A stretch of DNA of 64,000 nt, taken from Bugulina stolonifera (taxonomy: Eukaryota; Bryozoa; Gymnolaemata; Cheilostomatida; Bugulidae). Positions 531 to 57,099 of the stretch are shown here, piece by piece. Position numbers and translations under genes: made by a program. The first letter of the stretch is position 1. The number at the start of each line of letters is the position of its first letter. The DNA lies in NCBI GenBank assembly GCA_935421135.1, contig OW285190.1:2480001-2544000 (forward strand), written 5' to 3'. The notes under the pieces were generated by a model. It was not told the origin of the DNA and did no database searches. It saw nothing but the letters and a program-made list of their open reading frames with translations.

Positions 531-1149
531 ATACAGTAGATTTATACATTGGAGGAATTATAGCAGAAGCCTTCTGAAGTTATGCTATAATACATAAATA
601 CCACTGTTTTAATTACAGTGGCCAGGGTACGACAATGGGACCATCTGGTATGAACAGTTATCTACAGGGCAGTATATAGCGTAGCTTACATGTAGGTTAG
701 TGATTTAAGTGTGTACATTGTATAACCTCACTATTTCATTTTCCATCTACCATATACAGTAATTCATGTAAAAGTTCAATTTGTACATGTCCCCAGCAGT
801 CTCAAGGTTTTAGCAAGTAGTAACTAAGATTAACTTCCCACCAAGTTAAATTCAGTTTTTGTTGGATGCACCTTAAGTTTAGTTTTATATAGTCTAAGTT
901 TTTATAGAGGCCTTGAATTATTTCTTCTGCAGTTTTAGTAAAATATGGTAACATTAGTAGTATAGAAGTTTCCGGTTCAAGTTTCACTTTCATTTATTAA
1001 TTCAGTATTTATAATTGCAAACCTGTATAAAATTGCAATCACAGATCACAGTAGGAAGCGTGCATGAGTACTAAACATTGATCTAGATGCTTAAAGCATC
1101 ATCTATGGTCTAAAATTACCACGTGTTATGTGTATGTGGATATTATGTA

Positions 1150-1297
1150 GCAATTATACCAAACTATGCTGATGTTATGCTCAAACAGTAAACTAGGAGA
1201 GCATAACCAAGCAGCTTGCTCTCCGCTCCTTATCTACTATATATGTATATAAGTAAGTTATGCCATCGTACCCAAGACTCATCCAGGTGTCTTCATC
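1150..1297 (+). promoter_or_regulatory. conserved promoter module of secreted-protein family, copy A
   Basis: About 140 bp just upstream of the start codon are closely matched at 41.73-41.87 kb and 48.95-49.07 kb, the other two places where the 5' end of this family is found. Shared parts are a block around 1183-1222 (stem GCATAACCAAGC), a TATA-like stretch ctactatata at 1234-1243 and a short leader with an ATCCAGGTGTCTTCATC-like sequence before the ATG. The leader lies 30-60 bp after the TATA-like stretch, as expected for a core promoter. Confidence 0.65.
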
Positions 1298-3654
1298 ATG
1301 TCCAACCTCTGGATATCGGTAAGTAATCAGTAATAATTATACATTTTATTATCATTGAACAGTTTTATTGTAATAACTTGTTTTGAGATTTTCTATGTTC
1401 TATCTTAGGCTTATGATGAGGATTGAAGTAAACAGTCCAACAGCTAAAACAAGTTTGTTGCTCAATCATTGTTGAACAGCTCAATTTTAATATGCACTTC
1501 ATTCTATATTCTATAAACGTTCTATTTTTGAACTGGCCGCATTTCCATTCATTGCTAATTTTTGACTCTTTTGAATAGATGTTCTACATGTATAAACCTA
1601 GGTATTTGAAGATGCTGGTGTGGATTTGTGATAAAATGTACTACTTGGATGCTTTTAATATTTTTGTTTCATTGTTTGACATTAGTCCTAGTATCACCAT
1701 CAGAGGGACATAAATTCATTTGACCAACATTGTGTTCGCCTGACAATGATACTAGGGCTAGTAACAAAATATCAGGAATAAAAATCGAAAGTGCACTTTG
1801 CATTCCTTTTTATACTGGGTATAGACGTGTTGCATAATATGTGTTGCATAATATGTGTTGCATAATACGTGTTGCATAACACATGTTACTTAATACATGT
1901 TACATAAGACGTGTTGCATAATACTTGTTGCATAATATTGCTGCATAATATGCTTTGCATAATACGTAAACATCCACATGGGTAGGAAGTTCTGTTGTAC
2001 CATAGAGATACTTTTGTCAGTATAGTTTAAAATAATGACAGCATACAAAAATTGCATAGTGTAGTGATTTTTACAAATCCTTCCTTTACAATATGCCAGA
2101 TGAAAGTTTGTTTTATAGCTTAACCAAGTGTCTGAGTTAACCTAATTTGCATGCATGAATATATCCATATACATGCATATTATATAGGGTATATTTTGTT
2201 GTTTCTGCTTGCAGTTGATGTTGATCTTTACAATTATACTCTTGAGCAAAAGTCATCCACACCAACAGGGTCAGCCTGCAGCAAATAAAGAGAATACTGG
2301 AAGTCATCCAGAAGAACTGGGTAAATCTGCAGCAAAGAAAGAGAATACTGGAAGTCATCCAGAAGAACAGGGTAAACCTGCGGCCAGCAAGGAAAACACT
2401 GAAAGCCATTCAGAAGAAGAGAAGGGGAAAGATAATGTGGACATTTTAGAAACAGAAATGACTCAAGATAAACGGTCTAGAAAGCTATTATCTTCACTGT
2501 CTGAATACTACATAAAAAAACAGCTTGTGAAGATTGTTAACACCTTGAAGAAAAAAAGACCAAAATACATGAAAAACAATGAAAATCAGTGGGTTATAGC
2601 GACACCTTTGAAAATTGGCCTGGAAGATAATGGCAGACTGACAGTGGACCATGAGATAGATGAAAAAGATGATGGTGAAAATGAGGTGTACACCAATCGT
2701 GATTACGGAGATGAATGGCTTAAAGCAACATGCAAAGACACCTGTGAAGATGGACTCAACGGTCTACTAACAAAGATGCAATCTGATAAGGTGTTAAATG
2801 AACAGTTTAGCAACAAAGTTCATACTGAGCTGCAAATGTTGTACAGAGATGATAACTTCAACTTGATGGATAAAGAAACTAACAAAGACAAAGTGATACT
2901 CGTTTACTCTTACTACATCCCATGTGCTCAAATTCAGTTTGAGAATGGTGGAGTGTTTGCGGAATGTGCTGGAGAAATGACTGCTTTCAGAGCTGACCCA
3001 GAAAAGAATAAAAACAACAACTATTTCATTATCATCTATGAATCTACTGATTACCTACGCACAGTTGCAACGGTTTCTCGACTTTACATGGAACTTGGAG
3101 GAATACCTTCTTTTCACTACAGGCGGAAGGGAGACAAGAGAAAAAACCGAAAAAAGAATCTCTACAAAGATGAGCATGTTCTTGGCTTCTCCAAAACCTA
3201 TTTTATTGGCAAACCAGTTGCTATACACTTTCCGCGACCTCTCAATAATGATAAGTACAAGTTTAGTAGTACTCAGCTATTCACAGATTGTTTGGCCAGA
3301 AACAGCTTCCTTGTGGCAGATATTGAGACTAGTTTTAAAGAGAAATTCAATACTGTTATCCGCTACATGTATAATGATGCTCGTGAGGACCTAAATAAGG
3401 GCTATGTTGCTTTGCATAGGAAAATAAAAAAGAAACTTGAACCCGAATCACATGATTACATTATTGTAGTATCATGCTACAAGTTTACAGGATATTTTGA
3501 AATGGATATGTACACTGCCGATGTGATATCTGATGATGTGCGGAATCACTATTATAATTATGAAGGATACCATAAAGAAACTCGCAGACTACCAGACACT
3601 GAACAACCCGCCTACCAAGAAATGGTTAACAGGTTGAATAAATTGTTTAAGTGA
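1298..3654 (+). CDS. secreted protein with deaminase-like HxE / PC...C motifs, copy A (2 exons)
   Basis: The spliced CDS is 1298-1318 plus 2215-3654. Exon 1 is only 7 codons (MSNLWIS) before a GTAAGT donor. The acceptor cttgcag ends at 2214 and both exons are phase 0. Joined, the N-terminus is a short leader plus LMLIFTIILL, a good signal peptide followed by SKSHP, so the product (about 486 aa) should be secreted. Next come three degenerate ~20-aa Glu/Lys-rich repeats (2263-2440), then a conserved region with H210-T-E212, P243-C244 and C258-A-G-E-M. HxE followed by PC...C recalls the zinc site of the cytidine deaminase fold, though the 13-residue gap between the two Cys is long. Other Cys (CKDTC; SCYKF) suggest disulfides. 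Copy B (49.1-51.4 kb) conserves all of these. Function is unknown; deaminase is an inference from motifs only. Confidence 0.75.
1828..1968 (+). repeat. 14-bp tandem repeat in intron 1 of copy A
   Basis: About nine degenerate units of a GTTGCATAATAYGT-type 14-mer lie inside the 896-bp intron (1319-2214). They are absent from the intron of copy B, so they are not part of the shared gene structure. Confidence 0.8.
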
Positions 3655-4250: not shown

Positions 4251-4343
4251 CTACTTATATACAAAGCTACTTATATACAAAGCTACTTATATACAAAGCT
4301 ACTTATATACAAAGCTACTTATATACAAAGCTACTTATATACA
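4251..4343 (+). repeat. 16-bp minisatellite
   Basis: Five to six near-perfect copies of ACTTATATACAAAGCT, directly next to a second minisatellite that shares the ACAAAG core. The second may have arisen from the first. Confidence 0.9.
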
Positions 4344-4361
4344 CGTGGCTCCGGATCCACC

Positions 4362-4728
4362 GGCTACAAAGCCACTAGCTACAAAGTCACTAGCTACAAA
4401 GCCACTAGCTACAAAGCCACTAGCTACAAAGCCACTAGCTACAAAGTCACTAGCTACAAAGTCACTAGCTACAAAGCCACTAGCTACAAAGTCACAAGCT
4501 ACAAAGCCACTAGCTAAAAGTCACTAGCTACAAAGTCACTAGCTACAAAGTCACTAGCTACAAAGTCACTAGCTACACAGCCACTAGCTACAAAGTCACT
4601 AGCTACAAAGCCACTAGCTACAAAGTCACTAGCTACAAAGTCACTAGCTACAAAGTCACTAGCTACAAAGCCACTAGCTACAAAGTCACTAGATACAAAG
4701 CCACTAGCTACACAGCCACTAGCTACAA
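4362..4728 (+). repeat. 15-bp minisatellite (AGCTACAAAGYCACT)n
   Basis: About 24 copies of a 15-mer that alternates between AAAGCCACT and AAAGTCACT variants. Because 15 is a multiple of 3, both strands stay open and produce repetitive frames (LATKP.. on plus, VASDF.. on minus). I do not regard these as genes. Confidence 0.92.
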
Positions 4729-6184
4729 CTACTAACACTACATTCCTCCATGGGCTTAGATACAGAAATACATAACATCCAAAGTACCAATTGAAGAGAA
4801 AAAGTTTCACAAAGCATACATCATGTAATATAAAACAAAACAGAGAAATCCTATTTGGGATCAAACATTCACACCCTTGCATATAAAAATCCTGAAACCT
4901 TTCAAGAGGGAGAATTTCCAAAATTGACCAAAACTGATCAAAAAGCTGAATGGCTTGTTGGATAGTGCTCAGCTAGAGCTATTCAAAAAAGTTTGCTAGT
5001 GCAAGCGCAGATGATGTCATGATGATGTCATCTGCCACAAATTGATCTCAACAAATGCAGTCTATGGAATCTGAGTAATTCAGTTAACCTTGTTACAAAG
5101 CCCATGGAAAGGTTTTTATTTAATAACTTTTCTATTAACCAAGAGTTTATGAATTCTTTCTACACTTTAGATAACATGATACTTAGCCACATATTATATT
5201 CACGTGCAATTAGCAAGAAAACTTTTCATTTGTTTGAGGGTATACTACAATGAGTAGACAACTTCTTCATATCTTCTAAAAGCTCCCATAAGTGAATAGA
5301 GGCAGTGGGTAGCATATTTTCTGGTATATTTTTAAAATACACATAACTACTTCCACTTGTGGTAAAACAATATTAGCACTGAAAGAGAAATAAAAAACTA
5401 AATTTCGCATGAACGGTTTCCAATTACATTTCTCCACTCATACAAGAGAGGACAACTCAGGAAGACTTCCCAACCTTTGGTGTTTCTTCCACCTTAAGGC
5501 CTTTGCCTAGCCCTGGAACTAATAGTTTGAGCTAACTAAGTTTTCAAATTAACCTAGGCCGAGTTCGACTGTAAATATAAAATATATTTTCTTTTTTATT
5601 ATCTAGCAGAAATTATGTAGTTTTGCAACTCGTTGAATTGATCTAGGTTGCAAATAACATCTCAAGATGGCATCTTAGAATTAGGGTGAACGGATTTAGA
5701 TACGAGATCTTGCTTGGTCAGAGTTAGTCATCCGAGGTTTATTAGAAAACCAGGTTCCTTGCACAAAAATGTGAAATTTGTGTTTGGTCCTGTGTGTGAA
5801 ATCTGTAAAAGGAGTGGATTTAAAAAATTTTGAGGGAGTTCATGTGTCTGAAAGTTCGGGTGCAAATATATCAGGGTTGGGACTGCTGCAGTGGACATGG
5901 TATTATATTCTTTTGTACCAGTGAATGCTGTGTTAAACTCATAATTAAATTTCTACTAGCAATTTAGCTTGTTCACTGATTTTTAAACTCAATTAGTGCA
6001 TTTCCAGCTCGATTTTAAAATTAAAATATCAGATGAAATTATTACACCTTCTGAAGGTGTCTCTACAGTAATATTAAGTGTTTTTCCTTTGTGGGTTACA
6101 ATAATTCAACTAATACTAGTTTTGGACTATCAAGTTAGCAAACCGATAATCTAGAGCATGGGTGATTATGTACATGTATGTACA
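4729..6184. other. AT-rich intergenic stretch
   Basis: No coding-like frame, RNA gene or repeat structure that I recognise. Confidence 0.5.
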
Positions 6185-9055: not shown

Positions 9056-9731
9056 TGTAAGGGTTTCGTGATTGGTATATGTCGTCTCCACCCGTGTAAC
9101 AAGTGAAGTACCTATGAGTGGTGCTAGGTTTTCTCATTACATGAAAGATCAACAGGTACTAGTAGTCGGATAATTACTCGAGTCAATGCTTGCCGACTAT
9201 ACTGAAAAAGAGAGTGATCCGACCTAGTAGGCAGTTCGGGAGGCAAGGTCAAAGACCTTGGCAACTAGAACGACCTATCTACAAAGTGAAAATCTCTGTA
9301 TAAGTAGTATAGAAGTGTCTTTGTTAAGATCCAAGCACCAACTGAGACAATAAACATAAAAACAATGTGCTTTACATACTGTAAAAGGCCGACGTAGTGT
9401 CGTAAAAAGCCTCTGTAGTGTCGTCCGAAAACTACACAACAAGATGGCGCGGAAGCCCGAGGCCGACCCAAAATAGGTCGGGTTTAACAAAGGATGCTTA
9501 CAATCATCCAATTCATGTACAAAATGAAAATCAAGCATTTCTGAGAGGTCGGCCCTCTTTACATGGGTATAAAAAGGACATACTTGCTCAGTAATGCACA
9601 TTATAAGTACATGTATATAAGTGATAGTTTACTACAGGGATAAGTTAACACAGGCAAGTATATGCAGTAAGTGTTCATAGTAAGTACAATATGATGGGGA
9701 GGCTGAATAGAAAGTTACATGAACCATTACA
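9056..9731 (-). repeat. LTR-A solo LTR
   Basis: A 676-bp LTR-A copy on the minus strand, flanked by ATAC at 9052-9055 and 9732-9735. The termini read TGTAATGGTTC...CCCTTACA on the minus strand. It shares with the other LTR-A copies the poly(A) region (cagaacgac.. / aaagacact near 9315), the CCGACC block and the TAATG 3' motif. It is diverged and lacks an internal region. Confidence 0.85.
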
Positions 9732-14251: not shown

Positions 14252-17200
14252 ATGTCAACGAGTGAAAAAGAAGGTTAGTGCTAAATGAGGTAGTTGGTAG
14301 CAATTGTGGATTGTTTATTGTTTATAGTAGTGTGAAGTAAAAGAATAACTTACACCCTAGCATTTTGTATTTTTTAAAGGGGGAGAGACCTCTCGTCAGG
14401 CCGAGCACACCTGTCAACTATGCGGTATGGTTCTCAGAACAGCGTTTTCTCTAGACAGGCACACGAAGAGAATGCATGCACAGGCTCACCCGCACAAGTG
14501 CCCGGTTTGTGGCGGATGTTTTGATGGGAGGAGAAAGCTAGGTCATCACATGAGGCGATTTCATAGCGAGGGTAATGTGGAAAAAGATGAGGGAGATGCA
14601 GAGAAGTTTGATGATGTTTTCTGGTCCAAACCACCAACAGCTGAAGAGGGGGATGAGATGGGGGTGCTACTAGCCCGCTATTGGAGCTCCATCAGGTCCG
14701 CAATACACTCTCGTCCCGTAGAAGATATTCTCAACGTTCGAGTGTGGAGAGGGGAAGGTGAAGACGAAGGAGATGAAGAGGTGTGGACTAAGTTGAGAAC
14801 GATGTGGAAGAGAGTGCCTTGTACTGTGAAGATTAACTGTAGCGCTGGAGTCATCCTCGAGCATAAGATCAGTGGAGAGTTGCGCTACTTTCACTCATCG
14901 AGCAACAATGCCGCATTCTTCCCCAAACCAAAAGTGATCAGAACAGAGAATGAGATGAGAGAGTTTTGCGAATCTGTGCAGGAGCTCGACTTGAGAGAGA
15001 GGTCAGCACAAAGGAGACCGAATACCGCTTGAGCTTTACGTCACATTGCGAATCTGACATTCTACGTCTATAAACTCCTAGAGATTGGCAAGGTGGGCGG
15101 CGTAGTGAGAAAACTCCCAGACTACACACTTAACAACCGACACGTGATAGCACTAGACGTAGACTTTTGGGCTAGAGGAGGTGCGTGTCCCTACTCAGAC
15201 AACTTGTGTTTCTTTAGATGCTTGGCCATGATGTATGGCTGTAACTGCGACCAAAAGAAGGGATGTCGTTGTCGTTGCCCCTCTCACACCACAACACATC
15301 GCTTGTTTAACAATACATGCGACAATCTAAATCTTCTTCCCCACCCTCATCAACTTTGTCAGACTTTCCCGGGGTGGACGCGAGTGATCTACTGGCCTTG
15401 GAAGATCATTTTGACATATCTATAATAGTCTTCTGTCTAACTGATGAGGAGGTAGCTCCGATAGTTTGGTCATCTGGGGCACGAAACAAAGCCCATAAAC
15501 TCTTCGTCAACATGTACGAAAGACACTTCAGCTAGATAAAGAATGTTGATTCGTTTGCCAGATGTTTCACCTGCAAGCTGTGCGATAGCGCGTTTACACG
15601 CTTGTCCAGCCTACGACGACACAAGTGCTCGCCAGAAGAGGCATCGGTGTTCGTTTTCCCTGTTGGAACGTTTGGACCCCCGCCAACCATATTCACAAAA
15701 CTCAAGCGAGTGGCGGGAATAGAGGTGGTGAACCCTGACCTCTTATACTACCCCTACTATATCACCTATGATATCGAATGCTTCATGCCAAAAGACAACC
15801 TACCAACTAACACCTCCACGATGACTTTTAGTGCAAGACACGAGTTACTGAGCATATCCGCGTGTTCTAACGCCCCGGGGTTTGAGCGGGCCAAGTGTTT
15901 TGTGAGGAGCGTCGACAGCAAGGATGGGACGAAGTGAATTCGTCAATTCGTCCAATACATAGCAAAGATTGCTGACGTGGCAGGAGATTTGTTTGGGGAA
16001 AGATTCCAGGATGTACGCGAGCGACTCTCTACCTTCCTCGCGGATCGGACGGATAGAGAAGAGGCCTTTGCTGACGACAAGTTCTCTAACGTCTCGACTT
16101 ACAGGGTGAAGTCCGGCCTCTCCGGATTAGAAAGAGAGTTAGAACAGCACATCTCCAGCGTTCCGGTGGTCGGCTTCAACTCGCAAAAGTATGACCTAAA
16201 TATACTAAAGGGACCTTTACTTTGCTCTCTACAAGAGGAGGAGGGAGAAGATTTTGTTTTCATCGTTAAGCGTGTTAACAGTATGTCCTGCGTGGAGAGT
16301 AGACGTTTTAGATTCCTTGACATATGCAACTTTATCGCACCAGGCTTCAACTACTCCAAATACTTGAAGGCATTTGGCGTGCCAGAGAGTAAGGGATTCT
16401 TTCCTTACGACTGGGTAGATTCCCTGAGAAGGTTGGATCATTATGGACTCCCTCCCCGAGAGAGTTTTTTCAACTCGCTGACTCAGCAAGAATTGAGCGA
16501 ACAAGATTATCACCAATGCCAGCTCGTGTGGGAAAGAGAGAACATGGAAACGTTCAGGGATTTCCTCATCTGGTACAACAACCTCGATGTGGCCCCATTC
16601 ATCGAGGCCATTGCACGTCAGAGCTCTATCTATCAACAAAAGGGTATTGATATGTTGAAATCTGCAATCTCGCTTCCAGGCTTGGCTATCAGATGGTTGT
16701 TTATGGAGGTGGAGGCCCGACCTTATGGCTACTCTCCTCCGCAAGCCGCTCTCCCGCTGCATAGGTTAATGTCTCTCCGAGACGAACTTTGCAACTCACA
16801 GCCCATATGTCTGTTCGATGAGGAGAGCAAAAGTCTGTACCACACTCTTCGCGATAACCTCGTGGGAGGGCCAAGCATCATCTTTCACAGACATCATGAA
16901 GTTGGAGTGACCTCTATTCGGGAGCAGATTTATGGCACATCCGCAAAACCCTGTAGGTTCATTCTGGGAGTCGATGCCAACGCTCTCTACCTATACTGCA
17001 TGATGGGGAATATGCCTGCGGGTTATCCAAGGCGGAGGCTAGAGAGCCGAGGCTTTGCTCTAGAACCCGTTAAAAAGTTCAGCAAAGTGGCGCATGGATG
17101 GCTAGAGTTCCAATCGTGGAAGAGAGGAGAGGTCATCCTTCACCAACAGAATGGAGGAGAAATGAGGATAGGCTGTCACAACCTACCGGTGGATGGTTAT

Positions 17201-18915
17201 AGCGGACAGAGTCGGACTGTGTACCAATTCCACGGTTGCTACTGGCACGGACACGAGTGCGAGCTGGGAGGGAATGGAAAAGGTGTCAGAAACATGACGA
17301 ATGAAGAGCTCCGAGTGGACACTGCGACGAAAGGAGATTACATCAAGGCTCTAGGCTATAAGCTCATCACCACTCGGGAGTGTGAGTGGGGAGCGCGAGT
17401 TCGTTCGGATGAAGAGGTTAGGACATTTCTCTCCGTCTTCTTTTCTTCTCTCTATCCAGAGAGGGGTTGCGTCAACCTCGATAAAATAATCAACAACATT
17501 CATAGTGGAGAGTACTACGGCTTAGTGGAGTGTGACATTTCCGTACTCGAAGAGCTAAAAGCGAAGTTCTCTGAGATGGCACCTATTTTCAAGAATGTAA
17601 ATGTGGGAAGAGAACATCTTAGCGAACACATGCGTGCTTTTGCCAAACAGAACGGACTCTTGAAGAGACCTCAGCGAATGCTCGTGGGGAGTCTTTTTGG
17701 CGAGCGAATCACACTACTCACCGACCTGGCTAGATGGTATCTAAATCAAGGTTTGATAATTACCAGGGTCTATCAGTTCGTTCACTTTATCCCACGAGCC
17801 GTCTTCAAAGACTTTGGTTCTTCGGTCTCAGACGCAAGGAGAAGGGGAGATCTGGACCCCGATCTGGCCCTCTTGGCCAGCACCAGCAAGCTCGTTGGGA
17901 ATTCAGCCTACGGAAAGACCATAACAAATAAGGAGAAACATAAGACTGTCAAGTATGTAGAGACGGTAGAGGGGGCGGCCGTCAAAGTGAGGAGTAGGCA
18001 CTTTTCTAGTCTCAACGAAGTTGATGAAAACTATTTTGAGATAGAGCTTCACAAGAAAAAGGTAAGTGTTGACAATCTTTCTTACTTTGACTCTTGATTT
18101 GACAAAACTTTTTCCGAGTGGAAGGGTGAACTTTCTCTCTCTCTCTCTCTTTCTTTTAGATTCGAATGGATGTTCCATCCGTCGTAGGATTCATCATCCT
18201 CCAGAGAGCCAAGTTGAGGATGCTAGAGTTCTACTACGACTTTATGGATAGGTGAGTAGAACTAGGCTATACAAAGATTTTATCAAATCCTTTTCTATTT
18301 ATTCTTCGGTGCCAGCACCCTCCAACCCGTCCGTTTTATTTTCACAGATTCGTCAGCAGAGAGGACTTTGAGTACGTAGAAGTGGACACGGATAGCGCTT
18401 ACATGGCCCTGAGTGCTCGCAGTATAGATGAGGTCATCCGAAAAGATAAAAAAGAAGAGTTCTACAGAGAGTATGGTAAATGGTTTCCCAGACCCTTCTG
18501 CGATAGCCACAAGGGAGACTTTATCACAACCAAGGTGCTTGGGCAAGAGTGGGAGATGAGGGAATGTTGTGAGAAGGTGCAGCGATACGAAACACGAACC
18601 CCCGGCCTGTTTAAGGAGGAGTTTCGGGGGGAGGGGGTCATCGCGCTCAACTCAAAAACATACTTTTGTTGGTCCGCTGACGGTGATAGCAAGTATAGCA
18701 GCAAAGGACTAAATAAAAGAGGAAACACCCTAACCAAAGAAAAGTTCCTCTCCGTGCTCAAAACAGGGGAGTCGGTGAGGGGAGACAATCGGGGTTTTAT
18801 CAGAAGAAGAAACCAAACGTATAGCTATACCCAGCTAAAGACCGGACTCACCTACTTCTACGGTAAGCGGAAGGTTGCGGAAGACGGGGTGAGTACGAGT
18901 CCTATAGAATGCTAG
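14252..18915 (+). pseudogene. Polinton/Maverick protein-primed DNA polymerase B, broken
   Basis: Exon 1 (14252-14273) joins in phase to 14380. The N-terminus has two C2H2 fingers (CQLCG..., CPVCGG...). Then come DNLCFFRC (~15205) and a further finger (CFTCKLC, ~15560). The exonuclease has YDIE (~15773), FNSQKYD (~16175) and YNNLD (~16575). The polymerase has DANALYLY (~16975), the HGCYWHGH insertion (~17232), KLVGNSAYGK (~17890) and, after small introns 18062-18159 and 18252-18347, DTDSAY (~18390), ending GVSTSPIEC. Breaks: in-frame TGA at 15030-15032, a frameshift between about 15300 and 15365, TAG at 15533-15535 and TGA at 15935-15937, each with family-like sequence on both sides. The last 900 or so codons are clean, so decay is recent. 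No integrase, ATPase, protease or capsid genes are present. Confidence 0.9.
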
Positions 18916-20187: not shown

Positions 20188-20865
20188 TGTAATGGTACGC
20201 ACAGTCGTCTCCTACACCTGACACTCATTATTGTGTGCACATACATGTATAATATATCTGCTTGTACTTTACTCTATGTAACTCCTATATTATCGTATAT
20301 ACTTGTATAATTATTACTAAGTCTTTTAATGCCTTTTATACCCATGTACAGAGGCCCGACCTCTCAGAATCCATTGATATTCATTTTGTACATGAATTGG
20401 ACCATTATAAGCAACTTTTGTATAACCCGACCTATTTTGGGTCGACCGTCGGGCTTCCGGCGGCCATGTTGTTGCGCAACTTCCGGACGACCTTGTGACG
20501 TCTTTTCCCGACACTACGTCGGGCGAAAGTCCTTATACTATATAAAGGGCATTGTTTAACTGTTCATTGTCTCAGTCTTCACTTGGCTTTCAATAAAGAC
20601 ACATCTATACTTGATACAGAGACTTTCACTTCCTTTTGTCAGGTCATTCGCTTAGCGAACCGCCTACTAGGTCGGATCACTCTCTTTCATAGTATAGTCT
20701 GAAGGTCAGACTTGGAACCAGATAGGTCGTCTCTGGTAGTTATTGGGCTACTGAGACCGCTCGATCTTTCATGTAATGCGAAGGCCTAGCACCACGCATA
20801 GGCACTTCAATTCTGGGTCGGTAGTCGTCCAAGGACGACCGCACCAAATCACAGAAACCATTACA
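20188..20865 (+). repeat. LTR-A solo LTR
   Basis: A 678-bp LTR reading TGTAATGGTACGC...GAAACCATTACA, flanked by ATAT at 20184-20187 and 20866-20869. It contains ctatataaagg (TATA), caataaagaca (poly(A) signal) and the CCGAC-rich U3. It closely matches the LTRs of the full element at 34.8-40.0 kb. Confidence 0.92.
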
Positions 20866-20869
20866 ATAT

Positions 20870-34785: not shown

Positions 34786-35448
34786 TGTGATGGTACGCCC
34801 AGTCGTATCTTACATCTGACACTCATTATTGCGTGCATACATGTATATATCTGCTTGTACTTTACTCTTATATTGTTATATATGATTGTATGATTATTTC
34901 TAAGTCTTTTAATGCCTTTTATACCCATGTACAGAGGCCCGACCTCTCAGAATCCATTGATATTCATTTTGTACATGAATTGGACCATTATAAGCAACTT
35001 TTGTAGAACCCGACCTATTTTGGGTCGGCCGTCGGGCTTCCGGCGGCCATCTTGTTGCGCAACTTCCGGACGACCACACGTCGTCTTTTCCCGACGTCAC
35101 GTCGGCCGGAAGTCCTTATACTATATAAAGGGCACTGTTTTACTGTTCATTGTCTCAGTCTACACTTGGCTTTCAATAAAGACACATCTATACTTGATAC
35201 AGGGACTTTCTCTTCCTTTTACTAGGTCATTCGCTTTGCGAACCGCCTACTAGGTTGAACTACTCTCTTTCACTGTATAGTCTGAAGGTCGGACTTGAGA
35301 TCAGATGGGTCGTCTTTGGTAGTATTTGGGCTACTGAGACCGCTCTATCTTTCATGTAATGCGAAGTCCTATTACCACTCATAGGCACTTCATTTCTGGG
35401 TCGATAGTCGTCCAAGGACGACCGCACCAAATCACAGAAACCATTACA
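34786..35448 (+). repeat. 5' LTR of full-length LTR-A element
   Basis: 663 bp, reading TGTGATGGTACG...AACCATTACA, preceded by ATAT (34782-34785). It differs from the 3' LTR at only two positions that I could see (near 35106 and 35347). TATA (tatataaagg, ~35130) lies about 50 bp before AATAAA (~35176). Confidence 0.95.
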
Positions 35449-35754
35449 TTACTCTTACGATACGAAGAGAAGGAAGGTGACCTCGGCCTCGGGTGACCGA
35501 CCGACCTCATTCTTCAATACTTCTACGGCGATTTAGGACTCGGACCCGGGAACCTTGGATACGAGAAGGTGACAAACGCTAAAGTGCACCCATAATTCTC
35601 GTGGTTCCGCTGGATGTAGCCCGACCTACGCCGGATCTTCAATCAAAGACCGACCTCGGATCCAGAACAGATTGACGGTACTCAGTACGACCATTAGGCC
35701 GACACGGCCTAACAAACCAAAGCAGTTTTACTCACTACCCGACACCCTACCGAC

Positions 35755-39328: not shown

Positions 39329-39991
39329 TGTGATGGTACGCCCAGTCGTATCTTACATCTGACACTCATTATTGCGTGCATACATGTATATATCTGCTTG
39401 TACTTTACTCTTATATTGTTATATATGATTGTATGATTATTTCTAAGTCTTTTAATGCCTTTTATACCCATGTACAGAGGCCCGACCTCTCAGAATCCAT
39501 TGATATTCATTTTGTACATGAATTGGACCATTATAAGCAACTTTTGTAGAACCCGACCTATTTTGGGTCGGCCGTCGGGCTTCCGGCGGCCATCTTGTTG
39601 CGCAACTTCCGGACGACCACACGTCGTCTTTTCCCGACGTCACGTTGGCCGGAAGTCCTTATACTATATAAAGGGCACTGTTTTACTGTTCATTGTCTCA
39701 GTCTACACTTGGCTTTCAATAAAGACACATCTATACTTGATACAGGGACTTTCTCTTCCTTTTACTAGGTCATTCGCTTTGCGAACCGCCTACTAGGTTG
39801 AACTACTCTCTTTCACTGTATAGTCTGAAGGTCGGACTTGAGATCAGATGGGTCGTCTTTGGTAGTATTTGGGCTACTGAGACCGCTCGATCTTTCATGT
39901 AATGCGAAGTCCTATTACCACTCATAGGCACTTCATTTCTGGGTCGATAGTCGTCCAAGGACGACCGCACCAAATCACAGAAACCATTACA
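39329..39991 (+). repeat. 3' LTR of full-length LTR-A element
   Basis: 663 bp, followed by ATAT (39992-39995). It is nearly identical to the 5' LTR. Apparent short frames on either strand are LTR sequence. Confidence 0.95.
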
Positions 39992-40619
39992 ATATAATAA
40001 TGAATGAATGAATAAATGAATGAGTATATGAACGATATAATAAGTGTCACGCAAGGATAAAATTATATATATGGTAATGTCAGCTATTATAATGTTAAAC
40101 CACTACTGTCGCACTATTCAATATTTGCACAATAGTATTGTCCATCCTTTTTCAGTAAGATTGATGTGTTGCTTGTGTTTGGAAACCTAGCTGCTGCCAA
40201 GAAACTGCTATTTTAATATTGGCTAATATCACCTTCAATCAGCCTATGTTGGGAATTTTGGAAGCACTCAAGCAGTCAATATAAAACAGTGCAATGAATG
40301 ACAGTTAGTGTTGGCTCAATTAGATTACTGGGCTATTTTATGCTAGTAGCTTACCTATGTACATAAGTTACAAGTATAGACTTAGGACAGGCATAGCCAT
40401 GGGAACTTAACAGGTCTCAATGCTGACTGGAGGTCATAATAGCCAATGTTCAAATGGGTTTATCTTGACTACCACTAGGTTTACAAAGACAAACAACACA
40501 TCAATCTTCATGAAATAAGATGAACAATATCCCTTGCAAATGTTGAATGGTGAGACAGTAGTGGTTTAAGTACAATGTGAGTACAGTTCGTGTCCAGGCA
40601 GGCTGTTTCACCACAATAC

Positions 40620-47799: not shown

Positions 47800-48107
47800 T
47801 CTTTAGCACCCAAGCTCGTCCTCATACTCGTATAAGTCTCTTACTCCACTCCTTGAAGAGTATAAACCAGTTGTTAAGGTCTTCGACCTTGCAACCCGAA
47901 CTGCCTTCTAGGTCAGATCACTTTCTTTCTCAGTATAGCAAACAAGCATCGGCTCGGGACCACATGGGTCGTCTTGAGGAGTTATTTGATTACTAGTACC
48001 TATTGATCTTTCTTGTAATGAGAAGGTCTAGCACCACTCATAGGCTCTTCATTTTGGACTCGGGAGTTGTCTTAAGACGACAGCACAACCCCCCAAAAAC
48101 CATTACA
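47800..48107 (+). repeat. LTR-A, 3' part only
   Basis: Matches the 3' half of the copy at 1-530 (TTGTTAAGGTC.TCGACCTTGCAAC; TCGGCTCGGGA; TAATGAGAAGG). It ends AAACCATTACA at 48107, followed by ATAT. The 5' part, with TATA and poly(A) signal, is absent. Confidence 0.75.
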
Positions 48108-48329
48108 ATATAACCACGTACTTATACCCTGAATCCATGTCATGTGCTCTATTAGTATTATACTTACAGTATATTGTGCGCTTACTCAACATGATTGCAA
48201 ATAGTCAACTACCTGTTGTTCAACCTACAATTATGTTTGGTTATAGACAATTGCAAATGTAGGACCGAGGTCCCTATCAATATTATATAATCCAAATTTA
48301 TTTATTATACTAAATATACTGTTATATGC

Positions 48330-48818: not shown

Positions 48819-48944
48819 TTAATATTGAAGCAGCCAATATAAAAAAACATGGATTTAGTTACTTCAGGTTATCAACTAATGTTTAAAAATATTTTAAGTT
48901 ATGTTAATGTTACATGTACATGTACATGTATGTAAACATCAAAC

Positions 48945-49072
48945 CATGCTGATGTGATGCTCAGACAGTAAACTATGGGAGCGTAACCAAGCGGCTTGTT
49001 TCCTCTCGTTATCTACTATATAAGTAAGTTTAGACATCGTATCCAATACATAGTCATTCAGGGGACTTCATC
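48945..49072 (+). promoter_or_regulatory. conserved promoter module of copy B
   Basis: Matches 1150-1297: GCTGATGTGATGCTCA, GCGTAACCAAGCGGCTTG, TATCTACTATATAAG (TATA) and a leader with GACTTCATC before the ATG. The 50-60 bp from TATA to ATG is kept. Confidence 0.68.
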
Positions 49073-51447
49073 ATGCTTGCCCTCAAGATATTGGTAAGTT
49101 ATCGTCAGTACATGTATGTGTCACATTGTCAATGTCATTATACAGTATAATAACATTACTTCAAAAATATTTTCTTTACATTTCCGAATTCATATCAAAC
49201 TATGAGTTACACACCCATGTTAAAACCGGCTTTAAATATTAGAGGAATTTGTGTTCAAAGATTAAAAGAACATTGTTATTCGTGTTATCAAAAGAGCTGA
49301 GAGACAGAATCAGTGCTGCAAATTGAAATGTGGTCGATGGCACTAACCTCAATCTCCAACCTTCCCTGCCAATCCCCTACGCTTTTACTGCCTTTAACAG
49401 TTTAAAATGGTGGTTCCAAAACTCTGCTGAATGTTAAATAATATCTTTGAACTGTAAATAATTGCTACTATTATATTCCAACACTTATGGCTTCCCCAGC
49501 CTTTAGTGCGCTTATCATTATAGCTGATACATAGCAAGCTGAACAGGCCTTGGAAGTCGATTCTTGTCTGCTGTATACTTTACAGAGCTTATCATGAGTT
49601 ACACAATGCTGGTTGTTGATATTCCACACAGTTCTTTGCAGAACACATCTGCAAGGTTTCATTTTAATTCTTAGGACCTCAGGTTGAAACCTCTGTCAAA
49701 GACAGGCTACTTAAACAAATATGGAGGCTTGTCCTTGTCAGCTCACAAATAAATTATTCTTGCTACAAAATTATCTCAGACTTTTCCTTTTACAGGTGCT
49801 AACATCTTCTGTATTGTATTGTCAGCATGTCATGTTTTGTTGAAGCGAATGGAGTCACTTTAGCTGAAGAAATGCAGCCTCTGTATGACTGTGTGAAAGT
49901 GGTCACTGACCAGTATTTGCTTTGCTGATTGTACACATAAATTTTGTCTACTAATATGTGCACCAGTCTCATCTATACCAGAGTAAATTATCATGTTTAA
50001 GCAACATCACTGCATCATCATAAAAGATGCTAGAAATATTTGATCTATGCTGACTTAAAACTGCAGTATTTTAGTCCTTAAGCACAGAAACTATCTTTCT
50101 CTTCCAAAAATCAATTTTGATTTGTTATTGGATGTATTCTTACAGTTGATAGTGATTTTCACACTCATACTCTTCAGTGAGAGCCATCCTGAAGATGATG
50201 GATGGTCGAAGGCACAATCAAGAAATGCTAGGAAGAAAGCCAAAGCAAGTGCCGCGGTGGAACAGGAACAGAGAGAGTCAGAGACCGAACAGCTGTCCAA
50301 AGAACTTATTTCGAAGCTTCATATCCCAGCCATAAAGAACCGCCTGAGAGATATTTGCCAGGATATGGTAAGCAAGAGGGCATACGCTCCAAATCAAGGA
50401 TATGACCAGTGGGTCGTTGCAGTGGCTTTGGACATTAAAAAGGAAAGGGGTGGGCAGCTCACCTTAACTTACAACATTGATCAAGCCCACCAAGTTTATT
50501 CTAACCATGATTTTGACTCAGAAGCAAGGGAAGATATGTGTAATCAAGGGTGTGTAAATAATCTCAATCGCTTAAAGACAAGAATACGGATTGATAAAAA
50601 GTTAGATGAAGAACAAGACAACGTCATTCACACAGAGATTCAGATGATGTACAGAAGTGACAGGTATAACTTGATGAGCAAAGGTACCAACAAAGACAAG
50701 GTCATACTTGTCTACTCCCTCTACATCCCTTGTTCCCAGAACCAGTTCAGCAATGGAGGTGTGTTTGCAGAATGTGCAGGAGAGATGAATGCTTTCAGAG
50801 CTATCAAGGCCAAAAACAGAAACAATAACTATTTCATCGTATTCTACGAGACGGCACATGAAGATGGTGACACAGTCAAACCTGTCTCTAAGTTATACAT
50901 GGAGCTTGGAGGGATTCCATCATTCCTGTACAACTCTGTTGCCAACACAATAACACAGGATCCACTGGTTCTGCAATATCAAAAGAATTACTTTGTTGAA
51001 AATCCAGTCAGCCTGTGGTTTCCACGTCCACTAAAGGATGCCAACTACAAGTTTAGCAAAACTCAGCTGTTTGTGGACTGCCTTGCTGGAAATTTATTTT
51101 TAATGCACAAAATTGCAGATACTGCGAAAAACAAGTATAATGCAATTAAAGACTACATATATGCAAAATTCGGAACTGAAATGGGTGGTGACACAGACCT
51201 TGGCAAAATGTTAGGAAGGTTACAAAAGTCAAGAAAAGGATCACATGATCACATCATTGTGCAGTCTTGCCACAAGTTCACTGTAGCATTCAGTACAGAT
51301 GAGCACAAGCAAGCCGTTATTTCTGATACTAAAACAAACAACTACTACAATTATGATGGGTATGCCCACAATGAATTGGATGGAATCAACAAGAGGACAA
51401 CAAGCTACCAAAAGATGTTGGAGAAGCTGAACAGATATTTTGGATAA
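49073..51447 (+). CDS. secreted protein with deaminase-like motifs, copy B (2 exons)
   Basis: The spliced CDS is 49073-49093 plus 50146-51447 (intron 1052 bp, GTAAGT...TTACAG, phase 0). The product is about 440 aa. MLALKIL from exon 1 joins a hydrophobic LIVIFTLILF core and SESHP, so a signal peptide is split by the intron as in copy A. It lacks copy A's N-terminal repeats. Conserved: CNQGC, H169-T-E171, P202-C203, C217-A-G-E-M, VSKLYMELGGIPSF, FVDCLAGN, SCHKF and a C-terminal NNYYNYDGY. No close named family is recognised. The HxE/PC..C pattern suggests a zinc-dependent deaminase fold, but the PC-x13-C spacing is atypical and neither activity nor substrate can be read from the sequence. Confidence 0.8.
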
Positions 51448-52111: not shown

Positions 52112-52115
52112 ATAT

Positions 52116-52778
52116 TGTAATGGTTTCTGTGTTTTGGTGCGGTCGTCCTTGGACGACTATCGACCCAGAAAGAAGTGCCTATGAGTGGTAATAGGACTTC
52201 GCATTACATGAAAGATCGAGCGGTCTCAGTAGCCCAAATACTACCAAAGACGACCCATCTGACCTCAAGTCCGACCTTCAGACTATACAATGAAAGAGAA
52301 AGATCCGACCTAGTAGGCAGTTCGCTAGGCGAATGACCTGGCAAAAGGAAGTGAAGATCTCTGTATCAAGTATAGATGTGTCTTTATTGAAAGCCAAGTG
52401 AAGACTGAGACAATGAACAGTAAAACAATGCTCTTTATATAGTATAAGGACTTCCGGCCGACGTGACGTCGGGAAAAGACGACGTGTGGTCGTCCGGAAG
52501 TTGCGCAACAAGATGGCCGCCGGAAGCCCGACGGCCGACCCAAAATAGGTCGGGTTCTACAAAAGTTGCTTAAAATGGTCCAATTCATGTACAAAATGAA
52601 TATCAATGGATTCTGAGAGGTCGGGCCTCTGTACATGGGTATAAGAGGCATTAAAAGACTTAGTAACAATCAGTCAACTATATATAATAACATATAGTAA
52701 AGTACAAGCAGATAAATACATGTATGTGCACACAATAATGAGTGTCAGATAGAAGATACGACTTGGCGTACTATCACA
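52116..52778 (-). repeat. LTR-A solo LTR
   Basis: 663 bp, exactly the length of the LTRs of the full element and very similar in sequence, with ATAT at 52112-52115 and 52779-52782. It is inserted in the 3' flank of copy B. Reading frames on either strand here are LTR sequence. Confidence 0.93.
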
Positions 52779-53269: not shown

Positions 53270-53990
53270 AAGTGCACCATGAGACCATGATGGGTTGTGA
53301 ACCATTCAAGCAGCCAGATAAAATGTGTGACAACGGCTGTATTCATAATTTAAACCATCTAACAACTAGAATTCTGATCGACAAGAGAATGGGTGCGAGG
53401 ACGGACAATGAATTATTCATACTTCACACTGAGATGCAGGAGTGATTAGTTTAACTTGATGAAGAAACAAAAAAATGGGGAAACGGTTATACTTGTCTAC
53501 TCCCTCTACATCTCTTGTTCTCAGAACCAGTTCAGCAATAGAGGTGTGTTTGCCGAATGTGCAGGAGAAATGGCCGCTTTCAGAGCAAAGAAGAATGTAA
53601 ACAATAACTATTTCATTGTCGTCTATAAAACAGCTCATGTAGACGGTGACACAGTCGAACCAGTGTCAAGGTTATATATGGAGTTAGGAGGGATTCCATC
53701 TTTTCGATATGATGGTCACTCACTCAAACATGACCAACGTGTTCTTGGTTCACTGAAAAGAGATTTTATTAACAAGCCGGTCAGCCTGTCATTTCGAAAA
53801 ACATGTTTTATACGATCAAGAATTACATATTATACAGGAATACTTGAAACTGAAATGGGTGGTTACACAGACCTTGGTAACATGTTAAAAAGGCTACAAA
53901 AGTTAAGAAACACAATCAAGCTGTTATTTCTGATACTAAAACAAATAACTACTACAATTTTGATTTGTGTTGTCACACTACATTGGGTAG
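53270..53990 (+). pseudogene. broken copy C of secreted deaminase-like gene
   Basis: It starts in the middle of the family sequence (CDNGCIHNLNHL, then HTEMQE) with no promoter, first exon or signal peptide. A small deletion and a stop follow HTEMQE (53443-53445), and the frame shifts. The next part (53456 on) keeps VILVYSLYISCSQNQF, FAECAGEM and YMELGGIPSF, but the Pro of the PC motif is Ser. A deletion and another frame change follow after ~53790 and ~53900. It is a dead relative, closest to copy B. Confidence 0.85.
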
Positions 53991-56433: not shown

Positions 56434-57099
56434 ATGGCTGATTGTCAAGACAGCGGTGATCAGTTAACTCACAATCGAATGGATGCAAGTGACACTTTAT
56501 CGGACGGCTATGGTTTGGACCCACGGTATACTGATGAAGAGTTTGCAGCACTACAGATTGAAGAGCAAGATGATGCAAGGGAGAGAGCTGGGCATCGAAC
56601 TCGTGAAGGTGATTGGTGTCAGTGTGGAAACTGCCATGTTAGTCGTGAGATGTGGGCTGCAGAGTGCGTTTGTTGCAGAGATAGCAATGACCCAGATGTT
56701 GGTGAGCAGGTCAGATCGCTGTTGAAAGAGGCTCCTCCTGGTCAAGCAATTGATTTTGAGGTACCCGTGAATCACTACAACTGTGTGACTCATCACCACG
56801 CATTCCGGGCATTGTGTCTCTACCAACGAAACTTGTACAACGCAGCACGCAGATACCGGGCTGACTATGGTCAGGGTAGCTTGAGGTTTCGTAATGAAAA
56901 CCGGTTGCTCAGATATCTAGCATATCGTGAGTTTATCAGGTGGACATTTGGGTATTTAGGAAAGCATATCAGGAAAGTTATTCCTGCATGTGTGGTGTTT
57001 GAAATCAGACACGCTTTTCCTAAAAATGCTCAAGAGACTTATGAAGGCTTCCACTATGCTGATGACTTTGACCCAGATCTTGAGCGATTGTTCATGTGA
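56434..57099 (+). CDS. P2X7-ballast-like Cys-rich domain protein
   Basis: 221 aa from ATG 56434; this start was preferred because the frame upstream has no other ATG. An acidic N-terminus (~60 aa) is followed by WCQCGNC, ECVCC, CVTHHHAFRALCLY, RYRADYG, a basic LRYLAYREFIRWTFGYLGKHIRKVIPAC stretch (positions 56913-56990) and a final YEGFHYAD. The Cys/His order and the closing IPACVV..IR..FP are those of the zinc-binding cytosolic 'ballast' domain of P2X7 receptors, also known in unrelated invertebrate proteins. No membrane segment, so it is not a channel. It is unspliced and lies within the transposon, convergent with the transposase, so it may be an accessory protein of the element. Confidence 0.75.
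   Translation: MADCQDSGDQLTHNRMDASDTLSDGYGLDPRYTDEEFAALQIEEQDDARERAGHRTREGDWCQCGNCHVSREMWAAECVCCRDSNDPDVGEQVRSLLKEAPPGQAIDFEVPVNHYNCVTHHHAFRALCLYQRNLYNAARRYRADYGQGSLRFRNENRLLRYLAYREFIRWTFGYLGKHIRKVIPACVVFEIRHAFPKNAQETYEGFHYADDFDPDLERLFM

Follow-up and report, generated by a model that had tools for sequence, protein, structure and literature searches.

Secreted AID/APOBEC-like deaminases (SNADs) were named in 2018 by Krishnan et al., and according to the accessible text of the papers on them they include sponge SNAD4 as well as fish and shark SNAD1 (PMC11004436, PMC8201067, PMC9207270). SNAD1 has been detected in shark plasma (PMC11004436, PMC9207270), and immune roles have been claimed for SNADs (PMC11004436, PMC9207270, PMC8201067). 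On their catalysis and biochemistry, authors stated in 2024 that no knowledge was available (PMC11004436). Here we describe two related genes, copies A and B, in a 64,000-nucleotide stretch (hereafter the window) of contig C4 (chromosome 4, positions 2,480,001-2,544,000) of the cheilostome bryozoan Bugulina stolonifera. A first-pass annotation had proposed that they encode proteins of deaminase fold behind a signal peptide, and that this combination would be new; SNADs, published since 2018, had already filled that place. We conclude that A and B are probably secreted members of the AID/APOBEC-like zinc deaminase family, of which this bryozoan has several. As far as our literature search reaches, what is new is the bryozoan clade, in which 9-15 residues separate the zinc cysteines and further parts have been added: no title or abstract found named a bryozoan deaminase, in a search that covered few subscription papers.

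Copy A is an intact gene of two exons (window 1298-3654) with a 486-amino-acid product, according to the gene model and its splice signals. The features of the three copies found in the window are the following.

1140-1297, plus strand: proximal upstream region of copy A, with a TATATAA box; its counterpart upstream of copy B is 48910-49072
1298-1318, plus strand: copy A exon 1, 21 bases, MSNLWIS, first part of the putative signal peptide; a GTAAGT donor follows directly 3′, as in B and in copy L011
2215-3654, plus strand: copy A exon 2, with the rest of the putative signal peptide, charged repeats, the deaminase-like domain, a helical C-terminal region and the stop
49073-49093, plus strand: copy B exon 1, MLALKIL
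50146-51447, plus strand: copy B exon 2, giving 440 amino acids with exon 1
53323-53985, plus strand: copy C, a broken copy whose similarity to B lies in three pieces, two frames and with one stop

The splicing of the A and B exons is inferred from the splice signals, and the intron interrupts the hydrophobic start of both proteins. A short ATG exon with GTAAGT right behind it also occurs at L011 on contig C11; a pattern search of the sequence stretch around each of L012-L015 did not find this layout. In all five of L011-L015, exon 2 starts directly after an AG acceptor. Upstream of the ATG, TATATAA box included, A and B are identical at 128 of 148 ungapped positions; in the first introns, taken as a control, 362 of 489 positions agree and the alignment needed far more gaps. 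Computed amino-acid-changing differences between A and B are far fewer than silent ones, and the two are intact, old paralogues. Copy C was said to keep most of the core: this holds for HTE and ECAGEM, which it retains, but not for PC, which reads SC. It was also considered as a live short form, and dropped because its pieces lie in two frames and contain one stop.

In characterised APOBECs, zinc is held by a His and two Cys, and a Glu activates the water that turns cytosine into uracil; the zinc cysteines of deaminases are usually 2-4 residues apart. The signature announced for A and B was confirmed, as both read HTE-x30-PC-x13-C. Its conservation was examined in an alignment of 25 rows, which includes P0002-P0016, relatives collected by three protein searches.

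2821-2829, plus strand: copy A HTE, whose His would bind zinc and whose Glu would be catalytic; neither varies in any of the 25 rows
2920-2925, plus strand: copy A PC, directly after strand 145-152, with the putative first zinc cysteine, which all 25 rows share
2965-2967, plus strand: copy A, Cys of ECAGEM, the putative second zinc cysteine, with which helix 169-178 begins; shared by all 25 rows
50629-50637, plus strand: copy B HTE
50728-50733, plus strand: copy B PC
50773-50775, plus strand: copy B second proposed zinc Cys

Six alignment columns show no variation at all: H, E, C, C, S and I. All four residues needed by a zinc deaminase are among them, which answers the check on homologues proposed at the outset. 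Relatives keeping the four go down to 18-24% identity to A. By chance, even a loose pattern (H.E, 20-40 residues, PC, 2-15 residues, C) appeared in 0.095% (A) and 0.10% (B) of composition shuffles, 20,000 of each. The Thr of HTE and the Pro of PC are conserved in at least 90% of rows, P0013 having LC instead of PC. The gap between HxE and PC is 28-35 residues in 24 of the 25 proteins, and 41 in P0002; A and B thus show the HxE, then about 24-36 residues, then PC of the AID/APOBEC-like superfamily. The PC-x2-4-C of that superfamily, in contrast, fits none of the 25. Spacing between the cysteines is 9-15 residues across the family: 13-15 in 20 proteins and 9 or 10 in five divergent ones. In this genome, it is PC-x10-C in L017, PC-x9-C in L018 and L019, and x13 or x14 in the long-loop copies. 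The long spacing, flagged from the start as a caution, is therefore real.

Structure prediction and a fold search, the two checks first suggested, returned a deaminase-like fold for both proteins, over the following regions.

2551-3186, plus strand: copy A region aligning to APOBEC structures, model residues 31-242
50365-51075, plus strand: copy B deaminase-like domain, modelled alone (predicted local distance difference test, pLDDT, 85.0; predicted template modelling score, pTM, 0.85)

In both models the predicted order is that of APOBECs, strand-strand-helix(HTE)-strand-(PC...C)helix-strand-helix-strand plus a handful of additional elements, including the helix between strands 4 and 5 of the sandwich that marks AID/APOBEC-like deaminases. 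The fold matches listed for both were all deaminases; the top 29 rows listed for A and the top 43 listed for the B domain were AID/APOBEC, with APOBEC3A/B/G the best structural matches among those listed. The four residues fall on the predicted secondary structure at what we take to be their positions in known deaminases. We hold with high confidence that the A and B domain has the deaminase fold.

For the profile searches, the curated Pfam cut-offs are 25 bits for SNAD1 (PF18744) and 27 bits for SNAD4 (PF18750), and no family member scanned reached that of SNAD1. The four SNAD1 matches were L018 (expectation value, E, 1.7e-4, 22.0 bits, all four residues covered), P0002 (E 0.0088, 16.4 bits), copy A (E 0.021, 15.1 bits, over a stretch including HTE and PC) and P0016 (E 0.13, 12.6 bits). 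P0009 matched NAD1 (E 0.0025) and SNAD4 (E 0.036, 14.5 bits), and P0012 matched APOBEC4 (E 0.17); copy B matched no deaminase family in Pfam. Among the 24 members scanned, SNAD1 (4 members) and NAD1 (2) were the only families matched more than once, and 14 others, mostly unrelated, were matched once each. The deaminase families matched were all AID/APOBEC-like clades. Single weak matches mean little, because unrelated families score alike (DEK_C for L013, E 0.0017; OptrA, E 0.0024, and Cas1b, E 8.3e-4, for P0005); what counts is recurrence over the motif. Because every score observed for the family lies below its cut-off, we file it as SNAD-like, and as neither SNAD1 nor SNAD4. Searches of PDB sequences with A, L018, A2 and A6 found no deaminase, and six proteins scanned against NCBIfam and PADLOC matched only unrelated families, and those weakly. 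A whole-genome search with Pfam SNAD1 gave nothing at E 0.001; its controls were silent too, which makes it uninformative. Bacterial, viral and phage collections held no tblastn-confirmed relative, at a sensitivity that could miss distant kinship, e.g. to polymorphic-toxin deaminases. Altogether, the first claim of a deaminase-like fold is borne out by structure prediction, fold search, invariance of the four residues in 25 relatives, and a chain of homology to Pfam SNAD1 via L018.

Among described systems, SNAD1 of fish, sharks and other cold-blooded vertebrates gives the nearest Pfam signal, and shares the signal peptide, the HxE...PC...C arrangement and the multigene character. It has CVxxC in the accessible text of PMC11004436, whereas the bryozoan proteins have 9-15 residues between the cysteines, score below the 25-bit cut-off, and carry added N- and C-terminal parts. 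SNAD4 is alike as an invertebrate secreted deaminase clade, and two SNAD4 loci share this bryozoan genome; these have HAE and PCxxC, whereas A, B and C had no SNAD4 match in the Pfam scan. The two loci, L020 (C10:11051833-11052027) and L021 (C10:11064613-11064891), match SNAD4 above the cut-off, and are in a bryozoan; SNAD4 is described as sponge-only in the accessible text of PMC11004436. Another locus, L024 (C7:1784960-1785211, minus strand), is an open frame that starts much as a signal peptide would, contains LPCMEC and resembles NAD1 weakly (23.9 bits, cut-off 27); by eye, HxE is not obvious where expected, and L024 may be a pseudoenzyme. Classic AID/APOBEC proteins, including the AID-like ones of sea urchin and brachiopod, have the same predicted fold. 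In sea urchin and brachiopod, the motif reported in the available parts of Liu et al. 2018 (PMC5956068) is H[AVS]E-x(24-36)-PCxxC, against HTE and PC-x13-C in A and B, and the sea urchin proteins SpAIDL1 and 4a have 193 and 194 amino acids (PMC5956068), against 440-486.

We searched 234,951,659 bases in 27 contigs for other members. The published tzBugStol2.1 assembly has 234,982,697 bases in 30 scaffolds, according to the accessible text of PMC10213821, so that a small part is missing from the searched set. A search with A gave 11 places; P0012, a protein of another bryozoan, Bugula neritina, gave nine of these, missing L017 and L018; and L019 gave ten places, missing copy C. The union of these one-protein searches comprises seven intact long-loop copies (A and B, a third on C4, and two each on C11 and C3), the broken copy C, and the divergent open frames L017, L018 and L019, on contigs C9, C5 and C10. 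These counts are lower bounds, with at least 10 places having open frames. With L019 as the only query, E values of 3.0e-9 to 5.0e-4 were obtained for A, B, L011-L015, L017 and L018; on this single-sequence evidence the two loop classes, x9-x10 and x13-x14, are homologous. In the tree of the 25 rows, a group of nine, P0012 among them, is starred (100/99); the long-loop copies of this genome fall outside that group, as expected of a lineage-specific expansion. However, seven of the 22 inner branches are starred and seven open, and the five divergent rows sit on very long branches.

Secretion was examined by hydropathy. From the splice acceptors, a hydrophobic stretch opens exon 2 in all seven intact long-loop copies, and in six of them no 10-mer elsewhere in the protein is more hydrophobic than its best one; the exception, L015, was read from exon 2 alone. 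The signal peptide typical of SNAD1 is thus seen in these copies by hydropathy rather than with a dedicated program. Such a stretch is also present near the start of P0003, P0007, P0008, P0010, P0011, P0012 and P0014, and weak in P0009. None was seen at the N-terminus of P0002, P0004, P0006, P0013 and P0015, some of which are perhaps incomplete at their start, nor in L018 and L019 in the frame read. Non-zinc cysteines are also conserved: among the 20 long-loop rows, model positions 91 and 95 (20/20 each) and 277 (19/20), then 339 (16/16) and 385 (14/16), and one further C-terminal Cys in 12 of the 12 rows with a letter there. The last two C-terminal Cys occur together in 14 of 16 frames, whereas A and B have neither, which is how the loss of a whole disulphide would look, perhaps through a single event. 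The claim of secretion is strengthened by the exon 2 starts and by this pair being kept or lost together, and A and B are very likely secreted.

We propose that one zinc would be bound by the His and the two Cys of A and B, that the Glu of HTE would shuttle the proton, and that water would attack C4 of cytosine in single-stranded DNA or RNA. The 13-residue Cys-Cys loop would be an insertion beside the active site, reshaping or gating the substrate pocket, and disulphides would stabilise the protein outside the cell. The enzyme would be released against foreign nucleic acid, be it viral, microbial or from a rival colony. Such defence would be the likeliest use, given that the proteins are several and probably secreted and that SNADs have been credited with immune roles. 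On balance we favour A and B being catalytically active; that their substrate is a polynucleotide has somewhat less than an even chance.

The alternative that survives best, though unlikely, is a deaminase fold turned into a secreted binder, in which zinc would be structural and the widened zinc loop would serve recognition of microbes, mucus or kin. The loop does exceed 2-4 residues in 25 of 25 proteins. Arg/Gly/Tyr-rich C-terminal tails of at least 35 residues, found in 5 of the 16 members examined (L013, L014, L015, P0002 and P0012), could also bind polyanions or form matrix. Their R+G content is 23-45%, against 7-9% in the cores; they are RS-like in L013, RGG-like in L014 and P0012, and a long GGYGN repeat in L015, and the Arg/Gly-rich ones could bind nucleic acid or matrix. 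In known deaminases, however, the Glu of HxE is catalytic and is not a zinc ligand. It is retained in 25 of 25 rows, although a protein that only binds should have lost it in at least some relative. Rather less probable is that the secreted enzyme, with the same catalytic core, acts on small molecules such as nucleosides, nucleotides or other amines; the fold-match rows, all AID/APOBEC in the top 29 and top 43, and the exclusively AID/APOBEC-like Pfam deaminase matches argue against it. Slightly less probable again, the N-terminal segment would be an uncleaved anchor, or a start retained in the endoplasmic reticulum, holding the enzyme on a membrane with its domain luminal or outside. A strong hydrophobic core does stand right at the start of A and B, and 6 of the 38 fish SNAD1 proteins analysed are reported to have a membrane-anchored N-terminus in the accessible text of PMC11004436; yet the segment is short and, judged by eye, followed by small residues suiting cleavage (SKSHP, SESHP). 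Chance resemblance, with a different fold in which HTE, PC and C serve unrelated purposes, could draw on the weak sequence match to known families and on unrelated families scoring at times alike, but is very improbable given two confident models, fold matches that are all deaminases, and four residues invariant in such distant relatives.

The rest of the window contains a dispersed repeat of about 490-530 bases where whole, 73-84% identical to its first copy; a copy precedes A on its 5′ side, and another precedes C.

1-533, 9101-9528, 20380-20868, 34963-35452, 39506-39994, 47869-48110 and 52113-52600, in both orientations: copies of the dispersed repeat

A tandem array of short units at 4260-4730 reads, by eye, like ACTAGCTACAAAGCC and ATACAAAGCTACTT. 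A 221-amino-acid open frame (56434-57099) has a P2X7-type intracellular domain (PF20478, E 1.1e-19). A 604-amino-acid frame (16283-18097) matches DNA polymerase type B, organellar and viral (PF03175, E 1e-7), and our guess is that it may come from a large DNA transposon.

Returning to A and B as secreted AID/APOBEC-like deaminases, we tentatively suggest, at less than even likelihood, an uncatalogued secreted clade, expanded in bryozoans, in which the 9-15-residue Cys-Cys stretch would form a new active-site rim. The RGG-, RS- and GY-rich tails of some members would bind nucleic acid or matrix, and the proteins would act as an extracellular mutator against viruses, microbes and rival colonies. 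Laboratory culture of Bugulina stolonifera is reported in the accessible text of PMC10213821. A colonial host with at least 10 open-frame members and two SNAD4 matches would make a practical system for the study of extracellular deaminase function, and its stretched zinc loop a natural test of how far PCxxC can be remodelled with the catalytic Glu unchanged.
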